Positions 1 through 9,540 of a stretch of DNA of 9,540 nt are shown here, piece by piece (within the stretch, counting starts at the first letter, position 1; each line of letters opens with the position of its first letter). This stretch comes from Chloroflexota bacterium. GTDB taxonomy: Bacteria > Chloroflexota > Anaerolineae > Anaerolineales > UBA11858. The stretch covers positions 1 through 9,540 of the forward strand of contig DOTA01000189.1 of assembly GCA_003513015.1 (NCBI GenBank). Reading direction: 5' to 3'. The notes under the pieces were generated by a model. The model did not search any database. It had not been told where the DNA came from and saw nothing but the letters and a program-made list of their open reading frames with translations. The position numbers were made by a program, and so were the translations under genes.

Positions 1-1121
1 ACGATCTTCTCATCGGGCTGCACCCATTTTTCGCTCACAAGCTGTTCCAAACCTGCCAGGGTCGCCGCACCTTCGGGGGCGGCAAAAATCCCTTCTTCAA
101 AGGCTAACTTACGCTGCGCTTCCAAAATGGCCTCATCGCTGACGGCCACCGCCGTGCCCTGGCTTTCTCGCAAATCGTTCAAAATGATCTGATCCGCGAA
201 ACTTTTAGGCACGCGCAGCCCCGAAGCGATCGTCTGCGCGCCTATCCAAAAATCACAAAAAGGGGAACCTGCGTTGAAAGCCTGAATCACGGGTGCACAA
301 CCCTCGGCTTGCACTGCTACCATGCGGGGGCGTTTCTCGCTTTCTAACCAGCCCAAAGCGGCCATTTCGGCAAACGCTTTCCACATCCCGACCAATCCGG
401 TACCCCCGCCGGTGGGGTAAATAATCACATCGGGCAATTCCCAACCAAACTCCTCGGCCAGTTCGTACCCCATAATCTTTTTGCCCTCCGCCCGATAGGG
501 TTCCTTGAAGGTGGAAACATCAAACCAACCTTCGGCGCGCGCCTTTTCACCGGCCATCCCGGCGGCCTCGCTGATCAGGCCATCGATCAAAATCACGGTT
601 GCGCCAGCGATGCGGCTTTCTTTGATGTTGGCTTCGGGGGTATCCTTCGGCATAAAGATATAGGCTTCCAAACCACCGCGGGCCGCATAAGCCGCCATGG
701 CTCCCCCGGCATTCCCGGCGGTGGGGATGATGACTTTGGTGATGCCCAATTCCTTGGCTTTGGAAACAGCCGCGGCCAAGCCGCGCGCTTTAAAGGATCC
801 CGTCGGATTAATGCTTTCATCTTTGACAAAAAGCTGGGTGAGGCCTAATCTGGCCCCTGTATGTGGGAGGTGTAAAAGGGGTGTATCACCTTCCCCCAGA
901 TAAATCATGTTCTCTTTTTGGTGAACTGGCAAAAGCTCGTGCCAGCGCCACATCCCTGCGGGCCGGCTGCGAAATTCATCGCGGTCTAATTTTCGTTTGG
1001 CTGCCTCTAAATCATAGCGGACGATCAGAGGGGCCTGACAATCCAGGCAAAAAGTTTGGACTTGCGAGAAATCATAAATATGCCCGCAATCGTAGCAGTA
1101 GAGTTCTGAGAGATAAGACAT
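1..1121 (-). CDS. thrC: Threonine synthase-family PLP enzyme, C-terminus cut off by window edge
   Basis: Reading the minus strand from the ATG at 1121 gives 373 uninterrupted codons to the window edge, with no stop; the end is missing. The N-terminus is a zinc ribbon with CxxC pairs at C9/C12 and C26/C29, typical of zinc-ribbon threonine synthases. The fold-type II PLP core follows: NPTGSFKARG with predicted Schiff-base lysine K111, TAGNAGG near 134-140, and the PLP-phosphate glycine loop PTGGGTGLVG near 236-245. The family reaction is O-phosphohomoserine to threonine plus phosphate. The residue after the lysine is Ala, whereas many threonine synthases have Asp (SFKDR), so a related lyase or dehydratase is possible. 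Full-length relatives run about 390-420 residues, so little is missing. The start lies five bases after the upstream receiver gene's stop, with only a weak GAG ribosome site, so co-translation is likely. Family is secure; substrate and the thrC symbol less so. Confidence 0.85.
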   Translation of the reverse strand, partial: MSYLSELYCYDCGHIYDFSQVQTFCLDCQAPLIVRYDLEAAKRKLDRDEFRSRPAGMWRWHELLPVHQKENMIYLGEGDTPLLHLPHTGARLGLTQLFVKDESINPTGSFKARGLAAAVSKAKELGITKVIIPTAGNAGGAMAAYAARGGLEAYIFMPKDTPEANIKESRIAGATVILIDGLISEAAGMAGEKARAEGWFDVSTFKEPYRAEGKKIMGYELAEEFGWELPDVIIYPTGGGTGLVGMWKAFAEMAALGWLESEKRPRMVAVQAEGCAPVIQAFNAGSPFCDFWIGAQTIASGLRVPKSFADQIILNDLRESQGTAVAVSDEAILEAQRKLAFEEGIFAAPEGAATLAGLEQLVSEKWVQPDEKI

Positions 1122-1126
1122 TGAAG

Positions 1127-1507
1127 CTACTCGGCATCGGGAACGAAAGCTTCGACTCTGGCCCAAAGTTCGCGCACGTTGATCGGTTTCGCCATGTAAA
1201 CATCACAACCCGCGGCCAGAGCTTTCTCAGCATCTCCTTTCAGCGCATTTGCCGTGATTGCAATGATCGGCACATAATGCAGCGCAGTGTTGTTGCTCTG
1301 CCGCAAACGGCGGGCAACCTCATAACCATCGATATCTGGCAAGTTGATATCTAACAAAATTACATCCGGGGTAAGCTCATCAGCTTTTTTCAACCCTTCG
1401 AGGCCATTCGGCGCTTCATGGACGGTATATCCTTTGGCTCCCAGCGCTCGTTTGACCAGGCGCATATTATCGGGGTTATCCTCGACGTATAAAATATTGA
1501 ATGTCAT
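1127..1507 (-). CDS. Single-domain response regulator (stand-alone receiver, CheY/DivK type)
   Basis: This 126-residue protein is one receiver domain with no output domain. All phosphorylation residues are visible: acidic pair E9/D10 in LYVEDN, phospho-acceptor D53 in ILLDINLP, switch residue T85 in AITA, and K107 in the terminal AKPI motif. Such proteins usually shuttle phosphate in a relay or act by protein-protein contact; the sequence resembles DivK and the receivers found in hybrid kinases. Its ATG overlaps the stop of the upstream enzyme-receiver fusion as ATGA, and a strong GGGAG ribosome site lies seven bases upstream inside that gene, so the two are translationally coupled. The histidine kinase at 3294-5363 has no receiver of its own and is the obvious candidate donor, by inference. 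It is not a recent duplicate of the fused receiver, since the two differ in subfamily signature. Confidence 0.93.
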   Translation of the reverse strand: MTFNILYVEDNPDNMRLVKRALGAKGYTVHEAPNGLEGLKKADELTPDVILLDINLPDIDGYEVARRLRQSNNTALHYVPIIAITANALKGDAEKALAAGCDVYMAKPINVRELWARVEAFVPDAE

Positions 1508-3162
1508 TCGGCATCTCCCTTGCTAACTTTCTGTTCAATCACTTCGACTACCTGATCGACGAATTCCATGGGGGGCAGCGAACCTTTTTGGTAGAGGCCC
1601 TCAATCTGGCCATGCAAGCGCTGCCATTCCGCTTCGGTAATATCTTTGGCGCTAACCACAATCACGGGGATGTTTTGCGTGCGCGGATCGGCTTTCAACT
1701 CTTCCAACACACCAAACCCATCAATTTCTGGCATCATCAAATCCAGGATAATCATATCCGGAATCCGTGCTTTGGCTTGTTCCAGACCATCTCGGCCATC
1801 CACCGCCTCAAAAACGCGGTATTTTTTCTTCTTCTCAAGCAGCCTGCGAATGAGATGCGCGGCATCTCGATTATCATCCACAACTAAAACGGTGGTGGCT
1901 TTCTCATCCAACGTCTCCAGCGCAGCTTGCAAACCTTCTTGGCGGCTGGCGCTCTTATCGGCTTCACTGAGTTGCAGATCGACTGCCCACTGATCTTGCA
2001 AAACGTGTTTTTCAACCGGGAAGGTATGCCCGGTGCAGTTTACCACAACCAACTCACTGTTTTCAATCACGCCATCTTTAACCAGTTTTTCAAATCCGGC
2101 GAAGGCTACAGCCGTAGCAGGCTCAACAGCTAACCCGTCAGCTTTGGCCAGGGCCCGCATGGTGGCGAAGGCTTCAGTATCCGAGACGCACTCCATCACA
2201 CCACCGTGGCGTTGGATGATTTCCCACAAGTAGGTATAAGTATCCCCAGGATCGCCTGTAGATAAAATGGCGATGCGCGTTTCCGGTGTCACTGGGTCGG
2301 CAGTGCTTTTGCCAGCTTTGAACGCTTTAACCATGGGGGCGCAACCAGCCGATTGGATGACTGCCAGCTTGGGAATCTTGTCGATTAATCCCATATCATA
2401 GAGTTCCTGAAAACCGTGGTAAACACCTAGCGGGCCTAGCCCGCCACTGACAGCCTGAATATACCAATCGGGGGAGCGCCAATCAAGTTGTTCTACAATT
2501 TCATAAGCAATCGTCTTCATGGATTCGCGGGAAGGCAGGTGCCCTGCCCCGCGGTCGAGTTGCAGGCCGCGGCGGGTAGCAAATTCTGCGGCGATAAGTT
2601 TGGTCTGATCGTAAGTGCCGGTAACTTTGACGACTTCAGCGCCAAAGAGAGCAACTTCGCGCAATTTTTCAGGCGGAACCATACTGGTCATGAAAACCCA
2701 AAGTTTGATGCCTGCCTGGGCGCAGGCTGCGGCATAAGCCACAGCAGCATTGCCAGTGGAGGCGATCACCGCCTCGTTGATCCCGGCTTCGGCCATAGCT
2801 GCAACCGCTACAGCAGCCTGCCGATCTTTGAAGGAACTGGTAGGCCCGTAGCGTTCATCTTTCACGTACAGGTTTTCATGCCCTACCTGAGCGGCATAAC
2901 GGCGGGATTTGCGCATAGGTGTACCGCCGGCTTCCTCGAAGTTCATCTCGGGCGGGGCCTCAACGGGCAGCACATCGTAATAACGCCAGATGTTAAACGG
3001 TCGGTCTGGCAAGCCGCGCAGCAATTCGCGTTTGAAGCTATTGTAGTCGTAATGCGCCTCAACCCAAGCAGAGTTACACCGTTCACAAATTGTAGGAGCC
3101 AGCGGCTTGAACTCTTGCTTATTTCCGCATTGCATACATTCCATGAATTGAGGTTTAGACAT
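1504..3162 (-). CDS. thrC: Threonine synthase-family PLP enzyme fused to a C-terminal receiver domain
   Basis: One continuous 552-codon frame encodes two modules. Residues 1-395 are a threonine synthase-family enzyme: zinc ribbon C9/C12 and C26/C29, GGTP at 79-82, SSFKDR with predicted PLP lysine K112, ASTGNAA at 134-140, glycine-rich SGGLGPLG at 239-246, and the family's TGH motif at 377-379. After a charged linker (about 396-422), residues 423-545 form a full receiver: acidic pair D429/D430, phospho-acceptor D474 in IILDLMMP, S504, and K526 in QKGS. This receiver looks like those at the ends of hybrid kinases. Ordinary threonine synthases stop near 400 residues and carry no receiver. The expected activity is O-phosphohomoserine to threonine, possibly gated by phosphorylation; related enzymes such as cysteate synthase share the fold, so substrate is not certain. 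The start is set by GGAG five bases upstream of the ATG. It is the first gene after a 131-bp gap and overlaps the next gene by four bases. Confidence 0.92.
   Translation of the reverse strand: MSKPQFMECMQCGNKQEFKPLAPTICERCNSAWVEAHYDYNSFKRELLRGLPDRPFNIWRYYDVLPVEAPPEMNFEEAGGTPMRKSRRYAAQVGHENLYVKDERYGPTSSFKDRQAAVAVAAMAEAGINEAVIASTGNAAVAYAAACAQAGIKLWVFMTSMVPPEKLREVALFGAEVVKVTGTYDQTKLIAAEFATRRGLQLDRGAGHLPSRESMKTIAYEIVEQLDWRSPDWYIQAVSGGLGPLGVYHGFQELYDMGLIDKIPKLAVIQSAGCAPMVKAFKAGKSTADPVTPETRIAILSTGDPGDTYTYLWEIIQRHGGVMECVSDTEAFATMRALAKADGLAVEPATAVAFAGFEKLVKDGVIENSELVVVNCTGHTFPVEKHVLQDQWAVDLQLSEADKSASRQEGLQAALETLDEKATTVLVVDDNRDAAHLIRRLLEKKKKYRVFEAVDGRDGLEQAKARIPDMIILDLMMPEIDGFGVLEELKADPRTQNIPVIVVSAKDITEAEWQRLHGQIEGLYQKGSLPPMEFVDQVVEVIEQKVSKGDAE
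1515..1521 (-). promoter_or_regulatory. Ribosome binding site of the single-domain receiver, inside the upstream gene
   Basis: AAGGGAG on the minus strand, seven bases before the ATG at 1507, lying within the last codons of the enzyme-receiver fusion. Together with the ATGA stop/start overlap it indicates translational coupling and roughly matched production of the two receivers. Confidence 0.7.
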
Positions 3163-3293: not shown

Positions 3294-5363
3294 CTAAATG
3301 GTTAACGATTCAAGATTTCCGATGGGTAGCTCCAGATAGAAAATGGAACCATCTCCCGAAATGCCTTTACTTTCGGCCCACAGCCAACCACCATGCATTT
3401 CTGCCAGCCGTCGACTGATGGGGAGGCCAAGGCCCGTACCACCTGCTTTGCGCGTGGTAGAAGTATCAACCTGGCTAAAGGCCTCAAAGACGCTCTCTAA
3501 TTTATCTGGCGGGATGCCGATGCCAGTATCGCGGATGCGGATTTGGACTTTGTTGTTGATTTGTTCCGCTTCGAGGCTGACTTTACCTCGCTCAGTGAAT
3601 TTGAGCGCATTACTGAGCATGTTGAGCAGCATCTGGCGCAAACGAATGGCATCTGCCATGATGTAGAAGTGGGGCGGTAGCTGGGTGTTGTTTTCAATCG
3701 CAACCCCTTCTTTTACGAGTGAACCACTGGTTCTGGCTACATCATTAAGCATATCATCCAGATTGATGGGCTCCAGGCTCAATGAAATTCGCCCGGATTC
3801 AATCTTGGCCATATCGAGCACTTCGTTGATCAGATTGAGCAAGTGCTGCCCATTCTTCTCGATCAACTCCAAATCCATAGTCATATCTTCGGTTAGCGGA
3901 CCGTCTAACCCTTCCAAAATAACTTGTGTGAAGCCCAAAATCGAGTTCAGAGGAGTGCGCAATTCGTGGCTCATATTGGCCAGGAAAGAAGATTTGAGGT
4001 GATCCAATTCTCGCAGGCGCTCTACTGTTCGCATCTGCTCCGCATAAAGCTGGGCGTTGCGCAAGGCCACCGCAGTTTGAGAAGCGAGCGTGGTAAATGT
4101 ACGAACATCTTCATCTGCGAAGCGTTCGACAATGTCGGCTTCCACATCGAATACGCCAATTAATTGTTCACCCACGATCAGTGGAATTGACATTTCGCTG
4201 CGGGCATTTGGTAAGAGATGGTGCTGGAGAAAATCGGGCTCATCGAGGGTATCGCGCACGATAATGGATTCGCGCGAACGTGCCGCTTTGGCAATGATGG
4301 ATTGACTCTGGTAGAGGTGGATCGCGTGTCCCTCTTCCATGATGGCATGACCAATTTTTCCGGAGGCAGCGGCCACTTCCAGAACGTCACCGGCTTCATT
4401 CAGCAAATAGATCGATGAGTGGTAGAGGTTAAAACTGTAGCGTGTAAGATCCACAACCGATTGCAGCAAAGGCTGTGGTTCCAAGATGGTGGCGGCCGCG
4501 GTACTCACCTGTGCCACCGTAGCCAATTCGGCAGCCCGTTTATCCAGTTGTTGACGGCTGCGTTCCGTTTCATCGAGCAAACGCAGATTTTCGATATGCA
4601 CGCTCAACCGCTCGGCAACCGTTGCCAGAAGCCCGGAAACGGTTTCTTGATCGACTTCAGCATCTGCCACGACAATTTGACCAATTGGCTCGTCGCGCAC
4701 TTTTAAATCTTCGGTTTGGATTGAGATGGCGCTGGCAAAATCCGTATAGCTTTGGGGATCATCAATATCCACGGGTGTGACCCGGTTTTGATCGTAGGAG
4801 TAACCCCGGGTGGGCGCTGATGTGGCCTGGAGGTATGCTTCCCAACCTTCATGGGTTAGTTGGCGGGTGGCTTGCTCTGCCTCCGTGCGATATTGCTCGG
4901 CCTGTTCGAGCAGGCGCAAGTTTTCAATGTGCTGGGTGATTTGCTGGGCGATCACCGATAAAACTTGTTGTTCTGCTTCTGTCCATTGGTCATCGCTTTC
5001 CAGTTGTAGCGCGCCTAAAATAGCATCGCCAACCTGGAGCGGAATTTCAAGCACAGCCCCAGCGCCTCCGGCTGGATCATTTTGGGTTTGAAGCGGCTTA
5101 ACTTCTTGTTGATCGAAGCTAAAGCCCAGCCGCTCGGTACGGTCGATGGCGTTGAGGTACTCATCCCAGCCAACTTTACTCACCTCAGAAGATTTGCTGC
5201 CGATTTTCACGGAAAGCAATTCGCTCAGGGTTGGGGGCAATTGAACCTCAGGGCTTGATTTAGTTTCAGATGGAACGGGAGCCCCCACGGGTTCCGGCTG
5301 TGGGGGTCGCTCATCCGAAAACAGATCATCAATCCGGTCTTGGAATTCTTCGTTTGTGGACAT
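3294..5363 (-). CDS. Soluble GAF-domain sensor histidine kinase
   Basis: This 689-residue kinase has no membrane segment, so it should be cytoplasmic. Order of parts: an acidic, proline-rich and probably disordered tail (1-60); two half-GAF modules with GW...DQ motifs (64-153 and 171-265); a full GAF domain (about 286-437); a HisKA domain with phospho-acceptor H466 in MSHELRTP; and an ATPase domain with N-box N581/N585, G1 box DTGIGIP at 612-618, F-box VFEAFSQVDT and G2 box GGTGLGL at 641-647. All catalytic boxes are intact. It has no receiver and ends soon after the ATPase domain, so it needs a partner; the two receivers downstream are the natural targets (inference). The start chosen is ATG 5363, nine bases after AAGAGA; a TTG at 5372 is in frame but directly abuts that site. 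The gene overlaps the end of the ParA gene by 35 bases in another frame. Confidence 0.93.
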   Translation of the reverse strand: MSTNEEFQDRIDDLFSDERPPQPEPVGAPVPSETKSSPEVQLPPTLSELLSVKIGSKSSEVSKVGWDEYLNAIDRTERLGFSFDQQEVKPLQTQNDPAGGAGAVLEIPLQVGDAILGALQLESDDQWTEAEQQVLSVIAQQITQHIENLRLLEQAEQYRTEAEQATRQLTHEGWEAYLQATSAPTRGYSYDQNRVTPVDIDDPQSYTDFASAISIQTEDLKVRDEPIGQIVVADAEVDQETVSGLLATVAERLSVHIENLRLLDETERSRQQLDKRAAELATVAQVSTAAATILEPQPLLQSVVDLTRYSFNLYHSSIYLLNEAGDVLEVAAASGKIGHAIMEEGHAIHLYQSQSIIAKAARSRESIIVRDTLDEPDFLQHHLLPNARSEMSIPLIVGEQLIGVFDVEADIVERFADEDVRTFTTLASQTAVALRNAQLYAEQMRTVERLRELDHLKSSFLANMSHELRTPLNSILGFTQVILEGLDGPLTEDMTMDLELIEKNGQHLLNLINEVLDMAKIESGRISLSLEPINLDDMLNDVARTSGSLVKEGVAIENNTQLPPHFYIMADAIRLRQMLLNMLSNALKFTERGKVSLEAEQINNKVQIRIRDTGIGIPPDKLESVFEAFSQVDTSTTRKAGGTGLGLPISRRLAEMHGGWLWAESKGISGDGSIFYLELPIGNLESLTI
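4569..4853 (-). repeat. Half-GAF module with GW...DQ motif, copy 2 (histidine kinase)
   Basis: Tandem with copy 1 in the same protein: GWEAY, then GYSYDQNRVTPV, ending in the helix LSVHIENLRLLDETE. The central IPI/IGQIVV portion is more diverged, but the flanking motifs align clearly. Confidence 0.65.
4905..5174 (-). repeat. Half-GAF module with GW...DQ motif, copy 1 (histidine kinase)
   Basis: Protein-level repeat: GWDEY, then about 13 residues later GFSFDQQEVKPL, followed by a segment like the second half of a GAF domain (IPL...ILGALQLES, then the helix QITQHIENLRLLEQ). Related copies lie at 4569-4853 and 8167-8439. Confidence 0.65.
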
Positions 5364-6114
5364 AGGCAACAATCTCTTGTGCTAAATTCCGATATTGTTC
5401 GGCGGCCCGGGTTTTGGATGCAAAAACAGAGATGGGCTGGCCGGCAATTTGGCTGGAACGTAATTTACTATCAAAGCCGATGATGGTATCAAACAAGGCT
5501 TCACCATAATATTCTTGCAGTTTTTCATACAATTGTATGTGTAGTTTACCGCGAAGATCGAACATGGTGACCAAAACCTTGTAACTGAGTTGGGGATTAT
5601 ACTCACTTCGGACCTGGCGGATATAGTTGAACGTGCTGCCGATGGCCTGGATGGCAAAATATTCGCACTGCGTTGGGATGATGGCAAGGTCAGCAGCCGC
5701 CAAACTGGCTGTGGTGATGGCTGCCATTGCTGGCGGGCAATCGATGATGACAAACTCGTGGGGCAACTCTTGTTGTTCAAGGCTGTTTCGCAAAACAGTT
5801 TCAGATTGCGGGCGAGTAGCCATCAACTGGTAAGCTGCGCTGATATCTGGCCCAGAGGGGATGATATCTAACCCTGGAATACCCGTTGGCTGGTGAAGGT
5901 TGGCAAGGGGTTCTTTGCCCAACAAACCATCCGCTGCCGATTTCTTTACCTGGCGAATTAACCCCAACCCGGCTGTCAGGTTTGCCGATGGATCGAGATC
6001 AATCAGGAGCGTGGGATGCTCGGAAGCTGCCAGGAATGCGCCCAAGGCCGAAACGGTGGTGGTCTTGGCAACGCCTCCTTTTTGATGGCAAACAACAATC
6101 ACATATGGTTTCAT
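5329..6114 (-). CDS. Orphan ParA/MinD-family ATPase
   Basis: The 261-residue protein has the deviant Walker A of this family, QKGGVAKTTT, with signature lysine K12 and catalytic lysine K17; the A' motif LLIDLDPSAN with D39 and D41; and Walker B FVIIDCPP with D125. Length matches short Soj-type ParA proteins that lack an N-terminal DNA-binding domain. ParA proteins dimerise on ATP, usually bind the nucleoid non-specifically, and move or space cargo when a partner stimulates hydrolysis. No ParB or centromere-like repeat is visible here. It sits between two signalling genes and overlaps the kinase gene, so the cargo may be a signalling complex rather than DNA, as for ParA-like proteins that space chemotaxis arrays; this is inference. 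A GGAAAA sequence six bases before the ATG is a weak ribosome site, and only 54 bases separate it from the upstream sensor gene. Confidence 0.9.
   Translation of the reverse strand: MKPYVIVVCHQKGGVAKTTTVSALGAFLAASEHPTLLIDLDPSANLTAGLGLIRQVKKSAADGLLGKEPLANLHQPTGIPGLDIIPSGPDISAAYQLMATRPQSETVLRNSLEQQELPHEFVIIDCPPAMAAITTASLAAADLAIIPTQCEYFAIQAIGSTFNYIRQVRSEYNPQLSYKVLVTMFDLRGKLHIQLYEKLQEYYGEALFDTIIGFDSKLRSSQIAGQPISVFASKTRAAEQYRNLAQEIVAYVHKRRIPRPD
5373..5378 (-). promoter_or_regulatory. Ribosome binding site deciding the histidine kinase start
   Basis: AAGAGA on the minus strand lies inside the ParA coding region. It is nine bases from ATG 5363, three from TTG 5369 and zero from TTG 5372, which favours the ATG. 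Confidence 0.55.
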
Positions 6115-6168: not shown

Positions 6169-9100
6169 TTACTGATTGGTTTTTTTCTGGCTGGGAAGTC
6201 CCAGTTGAATGTTGGTGCGCTTGGCTCCCAAAGCCCGGCCCAACTCACGGATGGCCACTTGCAAAGCATTTTCAACGCTGGTTGTGCTTTGAATGCGCTG
6301 GCTGATCAGGTTGATCATGGCTTCGTTTTCGGCTTGTTGCTGGGTTTGGGCGTAGGTGCGGGCATTTTGCAGGGCAACTGATACTTGTGAGGCCAAGGTT
6401 GTCATAATGCTCACATCTTCTTGAGTAAAATGGTTGATTTCATTGGACTGAACATCCAATATGCCGAAGAGATTGTTACCGGCAATCAAGGGGATGGCCA
6501 TTTCAGAGCGGGTATTGGGCAGCAATTCATTGGGCAGCCAATTGGGGTTATTGAGCACATCGTTCACGATGACCGGTTCTTGGGAACGGGCGGCTTGGGC
6601 TACCAGAGATTTCTCTTGATCGATGTGGATCAAAGTGTCGCCATGGGTACCGGTGTGCGAGCTACCCGCTTCCCAGCCACAGGCTTTGATATGCAGAGTT
6701 TGGTGGCTCTGATCTGCCAGGAAGATATGGCAATGGTAGAGATCAAAACGTTCTCGGGTTTGCAGTACCACGGTTTCGAGCAAGGGCTCCTCTTGCAGGA
6801 TGGTTGAGATTGTGGTGCCGATTTGAGCAACCGTAGCCAGTTCGGCAGCACGCTTGGCTGTGGCTTCTTGGGCTGCGATACGCTCACTGATGTCGGTGAT
6901 GGTGGTGAGAATGGAAGGTTCACCCTGATAGGTAAAAGTTCGGGCGGAAAGCAGAGACCAAAAAGTAGATTGATTACTGCGCTTTAGCAACACCTGCATA
7001 TTGTTGACAAAACCTTTGGTGCTCAATTCCCCGACAAACGCTGTTCTTTCTTCGGGATTGGCATAGAAATCAGGAGCGGGTGAATCCACTAACTCTTCCA
7101 ACGGCACGCCAGTAATTTCTGCCGCGGGTGGGTTCGCAAAGGTCAGCAGACCATCCGCTAGACGGGTGATCACCATTGGCAGGGTCACGGTTTCCAAAAT
7201 GGTTTGAGCACGTTCTTGGGCTTGACGGACAGCTTCTTCAGCTAACTTTCGTTCGGTGATATCCTGGTTTGCACCGTAATAACGGGTAATTCTTCCATTT
7301 TCATCGCGTTCAACATTCACGTTGACGGAAATATAACCCACACCGCCATCTGCATACTTAATGCGATGCTCCAAATTTGTGGTGTAGAAACGTTCTGTAG
7401 AACTGAGCGCTTTCCCGATCTCATCGCCCACCATTGGAAGATCGTCAGAGTAAACAAACTTTTGGGCATAATCCCCAGAAGACATTTTGTAACTGCCGAT
7501 CTCTTGTACCGTTGTGTGGAAAATGGAGTAGAAATGATCATTGAAAGTAAACAGATCATTTTCGACATCGTATTCGAAGTTTCCCAAGCGAGCGATTTCG
7601 AGCGCTTCAGATAACTGCGCTTCACTTTCTTGGATGGCGGCTAGCGCTGCCTGAGTTTGTTCAAACAATTGGGTTCGTTCTATGGCGATGGCCAATTGAT
7701 TACCGATGACCTGTAACATGCGTTCTTCACGCTCGCCAATATCCGTGCCGTTTTCCGGGCGGCTGGCTGCAATGACGCCGCGCAACTTCTCACCACTCTT
7801 GATGGGTATCGAGATGGCTTTCCCCATGGTGGCGCGCATCTCCATAGGTAGGTCTGCCAGGTAGGCGTCATTTTGGGGATCATTCACAATGATGGATTGG
7901 CGCAGTTTTGCGGCCAGGGTTGCAGGGGTGGCTTGTTCGATGGGTAGGCTGGCTTTGAGCCTATCTTCTGGAATATTAATTCCTGTCACTCCACGCAAAA
8001 CTTGGTTATCGGGTTCGTAAAGGGCGATCCATGACCCTGAAAAACCCATTTCATCGCAGATCATGCGAGCAACCGCTTGATAAATATCTTCCAGTTCCGT
8101 TTGGCCGCTGATGGCCTGATTGAAGCGGTAAAGCGATTGTGTTTCTGCCAGTGAAGATTGGGTTTGCTCGAAAAGACGAGCGCTTTCTAGGGCCAGGGCC
8201 ACCTGCTCGGAGATTTGTTGGATGAAGGCCTTATCTTCTGGTGAGAGTGGTTTTTCGGGATCTTCAGCGATTTCTAGTGACCCAATTGTTCCTCCGCCGG
8301 GGATTGTCATTGGCATATTGGCAAAGGTTTCTGTGAAAATTTGCCCACCTGAGAGTGGGTGTACCCCTGTCTGATCGTATTGGAATCCGCTGGGCAGGTC
8401 ACCCGATTGACGGAAGGATTCCCAGCCTTCGCGGCTCATGGCCCGATAGAGACGGTTAATTTCGTCGAGGCGTTCTTCCATCTCTTCGCGCAGGCGGGTT
8501 TGTTCCATGGCGACGGCGATTTGCCCGCACAAGCCTTCGAGCAGCAAGCGATCATCGTCACTGAGCGCGCCTGCCCGGTCGCTTTGCACATCGAGTACGC
8601 CGAGAATTTCATCTCCCAGCTTGATGGGTACTGCGATTTCACCTTTCGTATCCGGCAGGAGCGGGTTTGGCTGCCAATCGGGATCGTCTGCCAGCGTGGG
8701 CCGCATGATGGTTTCACCTGTGGCTGCTGCGGTTCCGATCAGGCCACTACCCATGGGCATGTGATGGCCCTGGGCCTGCATTTGATGGCCGATTTCACCG
8801 TAACCTGTTACCAATACAACTGCATCTTGTGTGGGTTGGTATTGCAAAAGCTGGGTATGATAGTAGCCCAAGCGTTCTTTGGTGAGGCTAACGATTTTTT
8901 CATAGAGTTCGCTAATTTCAGAAACCTCGACGATTTCTTGGGCAATTTCGGTGCTGATTTGTACCTGATAGCCGCGGCGCTCCATGATATTTTCGGTTTC
9001 TTGCTGCAAACGTTTACGCACACTGATATCGCGCCAGATGGTATGAATGACGGTTTTTTGACCTACCGGGATGGGAGTCAGCAGCACTTCCACGGGGAAA

Positions 9101-9540
9101 ACCTCACCATCTAAGCGTTGGTGCATCCATTCAAAACGGTTGCTGCCCTGGTCGAGTGCAATCTGCATCATCTCATCTGCTTTTTCACCAGAGGCACGCC
9201 CATCCGGTTGGAATTCAGGGGATAAATCAGATGGGTGAGTGGAGAGTACCTCATCTTTCGAATTAGCCCGCAGCATTTTTACCGTAGCCTGGTTGCAATC
9301 GACGAAGATGCCTTCATCAATAATCAAATATGCATCTGAAGATCGATCAAAGAGGGTGCGGAATTGTTCCTCGCTATCGCGTAAATCTTGCTCAATTTGT
9401 TTTTGCTGGGTAACATCTTGCACCAGGATCAAACTGTGTTTTTGGCCGGCTAATTCCAGCGGTTCAGCCCAAAGCATGGCTGTGCCAACTTCCCCAGATT
9501 TTTTACGAAACGAAAATTCATAAGCACTAACACGGCCTTG
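6169..9540 (-). CDS. Large cytoplasmic multi-PAS/GAF sensor protein, N-terminus beyond window edge
   Basis: The frame is open to the right edge, so an ATG at 9477 is internal and the true start lies outside. The 1,123 visible residues, numbered from the edge, read: end of a PAS domain (1-45), PAS (about 53-176, closing with the PAC-like IWRDISVRKR), GAF (181-351), a half-GAF module with GWESF and YDQ motifs (360-458), GAF (476-626), PAS (636-766, with YYGANQDITERK), PAS (771-889), GAF (896-1065), and a helical tail (1071-1123). No membrane helix, HisKA/ATPase, GGDEF, EAL, receiver or DNA-binding domain is visible, so the visible part only senses or scaffolds. PAS and GAF domains bind small ligands or cofactors; no ligand can be assigned, and no LOV cysteine motif is present. 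The last GAF closely resembles the GAF of the kinase at 3294-5363. It may act on that kinase in trans, or have an output domain in the unseen N-terminus. Confidence 0.9.
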   Translation of the reverse strand, partial: QGRVSAYEFSFRKKSGEVGTAMLWAEPLELAGQKHSLILVQDVTQQKQIEQDLRDSEEQFRTLFDRSSDAYLIIDEGIFVDCNQATVKMLRANSKDEVLSTHPSDLSPEFQPDGRASGEKADEMMQIALDQGSNRFEWMHQRLDGEVFPVEVLLTPIPVGQKTVIHTIWRDISVRKRLQQETENIMERRGYQVQISTEIAQEIVEVSEISELYEKIVSLTKERLGYYHTQLLQYQPTQDAVVLVTGYGEIGHQMQAQGHHMPMGSGLIGTAAATGETIMRPTLADDPDWQPNPLLPDTKGEIAVPIKLGDEILGVLDVQSDRAGALSDDDRLLLEGLCGQIAVAMEQTRLREEMEERLDEINRLYRAMSREGWESFRQSGDLPSGFQYDQTGVHPLSGGQIFTETFANMPMTIPGGGTIGSLEIAEDPEKPLSPEDKAFIQQISEQVALALESARLFEQTQSSLAETQSLYRFNQAISGQTELEDIYQAVARMICDEMGFSGSWIALYEPDNQVLRGVTGINIPEDRLKASLPIEQATPATLAAKLRQSIIVNDPQNDAYLADLPMEMRATMGKAISIPIKSGEKLRGVIAASRPENGTDIGEREERMLQVIGNQLAIAIERTQLFEQTQAALAAIQESEAQLSEALEIARLGNFEYDVENDLFTFNDHFYSIFHTTVQEIGSYKMSSGDYAQKFVYSDDLPMVGDEIGKALSSTERFYTTNLEHRIKYADGGVGYISVNVNVERDENGRITRYYGANQDITERKLAEEAVRQAQERAQTILETVTLPMVITRLADGLLTFANPPAAEITGVPLEELVDSPAPDFYANPEERTAFVGELSTKGFVNNMQVLLKRSNQSTFWSLLSARTFTYQGEPSILTTITDISERIAAQEATAKRAAELATVAQIGTTISTILQEEPLLETVVLQTRERFDLYHCHIFLADQSHQTLHIKACGWEAGSSHTGTHGDTLIHIDQEKSLVAQAARSQEPVIVNDVLNNPNWLPNELLPNTRSEMAIPLIAGNNLFGILDVQSNEINHFTQEDVSIMTTLASQVSVALQNARTYAQTQQQAENEAMINLISQRIQSTTSVENALQVAIRELGRALGAKRTNIQLGLPSQKKTNQ
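8167..8439 (-). repeat. Half-GAF module with GW...DQ motif, copy 3 (large sensor)
   Basis: The same module in the second sensor protein: REGWESF, then GFQYDQTGVHPL, TIPGGGTIGSLEIAE and the helix VALALESARLFEQ. It sits between two full GAF domains. Confidence 0.65.

Follow-up and report, generated by a model that had tools for sequence, protein, structure and literature searches.

Bacteria and archaea show a known trend of attaching receivers to metabolic enzymes (PMC5847659, in the part of that article drawn on here), and a receiver–enzyme fusion is thus in itself a recognised kind of protein. The enzymatic-output response regulators covered in that part (KaiC, BcsA-like, PPDK and thioredoxin reductase) resemble the protein analysed here in that receiver and enzyme are joined and in that they are lineage-restricted; they differ from it in that here the output is a PALP enzyme, the receiver is C-terminal and the protein is found across many families of one class. 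PALP is not among the enzymes named for receiver attachment in the same part of PMC5847659, and PMC1183210 states that it leaves other enzymatic output domains out of consideration. PLP autoinducer synthases (LqsA/CqsA), related to PLP-dependent aminotransferases, are encoded beside sensor kinases (PMC3376566, likewise in the part drawn on here). The Lqs/Cqs systems (with LqsR in Lqs) thus share with our locus a PLP enzyme gene next to a sensor kinase gene, but their synthases are aminotransferase-related and encoded by separate genes, whereas here a PALP enzyme is fused to a receiver; we use the likeness as a working analogy only. Among solved enzymes, cysteate synthase/CapA2 (9k3c; model TIGR03844) has a 435-residue chain, too short for a receiver, and threonine synthase ThrC (2c2b, 1uim, 2d1f, 6cgq) lacks the extra receiver of the fusion and differs from it in three further respects set out below: a replaced loop, SFKDRQ in place of SFKDRG, and scores under the model cut-offs. 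Full-text searches gave no description of a PALP–receiver fusion among the titles and abstract openings listed, four of the lists covering part of the matches (20 of 49, 15 of 19, 12 of 94 and 12 of 22), a result that does not imply absence from print.

The window, that is, the whole 9,540-nucleotide stretch of DNA analysed, reads on the minus strand in the gene order PAS/GAF sensor, ParA-like ATPase, GAF histidine kinase, fusion, free receiver and second PALP gene, with the following features:

6169..9540, minus strand: PAS/GAF sensor protein lacking a kinase core (its Pfam matches are GAF and PAS only), running to the window edge, where it is open
5329..6114, minus strand: ParA/BcsQ-like P-loop ATPase (Pfam AAA_31, 1e-39)
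3294..5372, minus strand: GAF-HisKA-HATPase histidine kinase, the likely partner kinase (Pfam HisKA 1.3e-19, HATPase_c 1.1e-29)
1504..3162, minus strand: PALP-REC fusion gene, 552 aa, a single frame from 3162 to 1504, ATG to stop
3076..3138, minus strand: predicted zinc-ribbon cysteines C9, C12, C26 and C29 of the fusion
2029..2931, minus strand: PALP domain of the fusion, a fold-type II PLP enzyme, residues 78-378, with Schiff-base lysine K112 (Pfam, 9.6e-67)
1528..1890, minus strand: receiver domain of the fusion, residues 425-545, with D430, D474, S504 and K526 (PF00072, 2e-20 over 425-510)
1127..1507, minus strand: stand-alone receiver, 126 aa, its start codon overlapping the fusion stop (Pfam, 3.4e-28)
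3..1166, minus strand: second PALP gene, a PRK08197-type threonine synthase (547 bits against a cut-off of 303), truncated at the contig end, with the ATG at 1121 as its likely start

The initial annotation had described, without naming a strand, one uninterrupted frame carrying a PLP enzyme and a receiver, and this description holds: both Pfam domains of the 552-aa product score above their gathering cut-offs (for PF00291, 225.8 bits against 35; Response_reg likewise), PALP being its sole Pfam enzyme match at E ≤ 0.001. The residues named in that annotation are likewise all in place, namely K112, STGN at 135-138, TGH at 377-379, D429/D430, D474, S504, K526 and the four-cysteine ribbon. The overlap between the start of the free receiver and the stop of the fusion suggests translational coupling of the two genes. 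ARAGORN detected no tRNA in the window.

Conservation was counted over 59 aligned fusions (the window, 26 database proteins and 32 loci). Throughout the enzyme part, K112, Q115, S135-N138, G205, K216, S239-G241, G243, C274, N375 and G378-T380 are invariant (59/59), so that the Schiff-base lysine in SFKD and the STGN glycine loop are present in every fusion; the ribbon cysteines are found in 58-59 of the 59, the exceptions being gaps, and in all 35 sequences of a separate alignment. All 59 receivers have the acid pair, the phospho-acceptor aspartate, the Thr/Ser and the lysine expected of the family: D430, D474, K526 and G527 are invariant, position 429 has D in 50 and E in 9, giving an acid pair DD or ED, and position 504 has S in 31 and T in 28. 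Most receivers have KP where the fusion receiver has KG.

The initial annotation had raised the prospect that the fusion might be missing in all relatives. It is instead carried by 100 of 298 class genomes and by Herpetosiphon. The class count comprises genomes whose best E is no higher than 1.1e-71, with an identity of at least 45%, which we took as fusion; in 98 of the 100 the match extends into the receiver, and G143 and G171 have an N-terminal fragment alone. Altogether 130 of the 298 genomes match the fusion at E ≤ 1e-58; the remaining 30 (best E 3.8e-68 or weaker) are taken as having canonical homologues, an assignment for which 12 of the 30 appear among the matches listed. Among 41 genomes (the window's own and 40 relatives), 37 match at E ≤ 1e-40 and the fusion is counted in 23, on matches of at least 213 bits and at least 47% identity, some of them fragments; the other matches reach at most 179 bits and 39%. 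In the wider phylum, 34 of 301 genomes match at E ≤ 1e-75, of which 27 belong to the same class and seven lie outside it, six of these seven in the single genus Herpetosiphon; a G432 contig equals plasmid CP000877.1 of Herpetosiphon aurantiacus DSM 785 (identical in length, first 20 kb 100%). An assembly or frameshift artefact at the domain joint is ruled out by these numerous independent copies.

Protein searches gave the same architecture: 119 of the best 120 matches have both Pfam domains, the exception (P0031) terminating within the receiver, and all of the best 120 matches to a divergent member have both. Organism names among the matches listed are Chloroflexota lineages as far as can be told, most entries being nameless; those named are Anaerolineae, Anaerolineales, Aggregatilineales and Thermofonsia. 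A contig scan yielded ten loci with the fusion (L043-L052) among the 80 listed, the others being mostly receiver matches. The fusion was absent from 49 named genomes (48 outside Chloroflexota and one Roseiflexus), an uneven sample drawn from loci resembling the receiver; 19 of the 49 match at E ≤ 1e-40, with a best score of 209 bits, and all of these matches stop by residue 418, short of the receiver.

The PALP domains of 60 fusions were placed in a tree with 11 canonical copies (the out-of-phylum L197-L199 are absent from it); those of the fusions form one clade with support 100/99, and a long branch, 2.37, sets it apart from the canonical ones. Forms with two receivers (PALP-REC-REC) lie near the base of the clade. 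Two clades are resolved inside it: one of the window type, with Herpetosiphon among its 14 rows (100/99), and one of 39 rows that are mostly linked to EamA (100/97). The window's own genome has one fusion copy in each, which points to an old duplication. L011 sits on a very long branch, and the tree program warned of long branches meeting.

Gene neighbourhoods were examined at 60 of 66 loci; L147-L151 were left out for containing too little PALP, and one duplicate was removed (L048 and L146 are the same). One of those left out, L149 (8897-10474, plus strand, genome G036), has a 525-aa frame that matches the fusion over just 225 residues of its N-terminal part, for which a frameshift, an assembly error or divergence may be the cause. 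A same-strand histidine kinase lies immediately upstream of the fusion at 51 of the 59 loci with an upstream gene. At L161 the kinase is the second gene upstream, the L156 contig has just two genes upstream, and L140, L141, L159, L162, L163 and L174 have no kinase label among the four upstream genes. As a control we picked 14 canonical loci from the matches in the 41-genome set and dropped L196, which lies beside the fusion itself; the remaining 13 gave no kinase, GAF or receiver match within their stretches.

The fusions of L141, L159, L162, L163 and L174 stand amid unrelated genes, and a distant kinase may serve them. At L162 the neighbours are an Na/H exchanger-Usp gene and a gene of the isocitrate/isopropylmalate dehydrogenase family, at L163 an IF-2B family gene, and near the L141 fusion are an Mrp/ParA-type iron-sulfur protein and an ARMT1-like gene.

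The adjacent kinases carry the motif SHELRT in 49 of 50 cases. Distances among these 50 kinase cores (50 of the 51 loci, one being lost on length) correlate with those among the receivers of the fusions at r 0.85, against at most 0.17 in 500 permutations, but kinase and PALP distances correlate almost equally (0.84), and the partial correlation of kinase with receiver given the PALP distances is 0.40. The co-divergence of kinase and receiver may thus merely reflect co-inheritance, which can explain most of it, and the correlation is weak backing for a kinase partnership.

A second receiver is present at 51 of the 60 loci by script and at 52 with L168. Its sites overlap: on the upstream kinase (32), as a free protein (17), on the fusion (6) or on a downstream kinase alone (1). 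Free receivers immediately downstream of the fusion were found at 17 of 59 loci (18 once L168 is included on visual reading). Two receivers on the fusion itself were confirmed by Pfam at L156, L157, L159 and L164 and counted by length at L043 and L161. The L156 fusion (8138-13225, minus strand) is a 1695-aa frame in which about 1000 residues without a Pfam match precede the PALP domain and its two receivers. At L123, a receiver-guanylate cyclase gene (7307-8353, minus strand) follows the fusion and its free receiver.

At 31 of 59 loci one of the next two genes downstream, on the same strand, encodes EamA, the label being confirmed by Pfam in all six such proteins checked. At many EamA-type loci (L131, L133, L134, L170, L171 and others) a second two-component pair faces these genes on the opposite strand, downstream of EamA; it consists of a REC-GAF-kinase and a REC-wHTH regulator, by Pfam for L131 and by gene order for the others. 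Across the 60 loci, the neighbours gave no prediction of a substrate: the genes that recur are those for signalling, ParA and EamA, with no pathway genes among them. Such surroundings, together with the frequent second receiver, which suggests phosphoryl competition, would suit a ligand-sensing pseudoenzyme, in which the PALP part would hold PLP with an amino acid and would gate the receiver, leaving the receiver as the real output through its competition for phosphate from the kinase. We regard this as quite unlikely: the PLP catalytic residues are invariant, which selection for mere binding need not ensure, and a putative exporter is nearby at the 31 loci with EamA.

The ParA/BcsQ-like ATPase of the window (5329-6114) recurs between sensor and kinase: a ParA-like gene is second upstream at 18 of 49 loci, the window included, and within four genes upstream at 19 of 60. 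Its recurrence is what favours a reading in which the receiver localises or scaffolds the enzyme and the ATPase positions the complex, catalysis itself being unswitched. That reading strikes us as very improbable, since the gene is missing from this place at the other 31 of the 49 loci and the residues of receiver phosphorylation never vary, a constraint that scaffolding by itself need not impose.

The initial annotation had assigned the enzyme part to the threonine synthases. Threonine synthases are indeed its closest solved relatives, and the 50 rows listed from a fold search are PALP-fold chains, covering model residues 1-430 at most. The more specific assignment is not sustained. The window fusion falls under the cut-offs of all six threonine synthase models found among its best 25 NCBIfam matches, as do two further fusions; it scores 248 against 303 for PRK08197, 160 against 167.1 for thrC, and 178.7/421, 145.7/358, 145.2/301 and 126.9/266 for the others. 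Nor does it reach the cut-off of the cysteate synthase model TIGR03844 (122 bits against 324.9). Other homologues are present in the window's genome, one of them scoring above the thrC cut-off, and a separate canonical homologue (E ≤ 1e-40) accompanies the fusion in 21 of the 23 fusion-bearing genomes of the 41-genome set, the exceptions being G021 and G033. At L165 the neighbouring PRK08197-type gene is full-length (10865-12052).

The loop NSxN..RxEGQKT, present in the five solved threonine synthases compared, is largely replaced: its N, S, N, G and Q are changed and its E and K kept, the arginine being uncertain by one residue. We aligned 35 fusions with the Thermus (Tth) enzyme, with a one-residue gap in the loop region. 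Tth N154 is R in 22 of 35 fusions and otherwise variable, S155 is G in all 35, and R160 is S, A, T or others; these are the three residues that we take to bind the substrate phosphate. Tth G163 is S or A in 32 of 35 and Q164 is M in 33, and G64 is Q in all 35 (Q115 of the fusion), turning SFKDRG into SFKDRQ. Tth K61, E162 and K165 are retained. In the larger alignment E213 is kept in 56 of 59 and K216 and H379 in all 59, and position 212, one off from Tth R160 and adjoining the alignment gap, is R in 33 of 59 fusions including the window, so that the threonine synthase arginine may persist in part of the family.

These observations bear on the proposal of the initial annotation that the fusion is a true threonine synthase, an isozyme with its activity adjusted through receiver phosphorylation. 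The retained residues, the possible arginine at 212, the kinship to solved threonine synthases, the thrC cut-off missed by just 7 bits and a threonine-synthase homologue within two genes downstream at six of 59 loci, the window among them, speak for it; the six missed cut-offs, the loss of most of the loop and the separate canonical copies speak against it. On balance we find the proposal unlikely and the label 'threonine synthase' doubtful. The strongest pointers to a chemistry near threonine metabolism are the adjoining true threonine synthase gene and the narrow thrC miss, and the presence of that gene, rather than EamA, downstream in the window is a hint that the reaction may not have moved far from threonine synthesis. 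The changed loop, the canonical copies and the EamA neighbour are the strongest pointers away from it.

Around the directly observed fusion, with its catalytic residues kept in both domains, its single PALP clade and its usual upstream kinase gene, we favour, with moderate confidence, a two-component system conserved in Chloroflexota that likely has as its output a threonine-synthase-related, neofunctionalised PLP enzyme with an altered loop on the substrate side, predicted to be switched by phosphorylation via its own receiver. Two complete, conserved domains encoded behind a histidine kinase gene are most naturally read as an enzyme controlled through phosphorylation of its receiver, and because the parts are conserved, a kinase-receiver-enzyme chain is likely. 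In such a chain the adjacent GAF kinase would phosphorylate D474 of the fusion receiver, and the second receiver, whether free, on the kinase or a second copy on the fusion, would compete for or drain the phosphoryl group. The state of the fusion receiver would then alter the activity, oligomerisation or partner binding of the PALP part, whose substrate may be a phosphorylated or similar amino acid, and not simply O-phosphohomoserine. In the EamA-linked clade the product might leave the cell via the adjoining DMT transporter. More tentatively, and with considerable doubt, the system could be an undescribed Chloroflexota signalling pathway, running from the kinase through the receiver-bearing enzyme to an amino-acid-type signal or defence metabolite exported by EamA, with the second receiver setting the threshold.

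The recurrence of two receivers per kinase offers a natural test of phosphoryl competition, and cultured Herpetosiphon aurantiacus DSM 785 provides a testable copy of the fusion (L177:9295-10932). Among the matches listed, one source (jgi) labels many of the fusion proteins 'threonine synthase', and metabolic reconstructions may thus count threonine genes in these bacteria where the genes have another function. If the favoured reading is true, roughly one in three of the class genomes sampled (100/298) has a PLP enzyme under the direct control of a two-component system; with the gene of a sensor kinase usually lying immediately ahead of the fusion, the target that an outside signal switches in these bacteria would likely be a metabolic enzyme itself, and not a gene.
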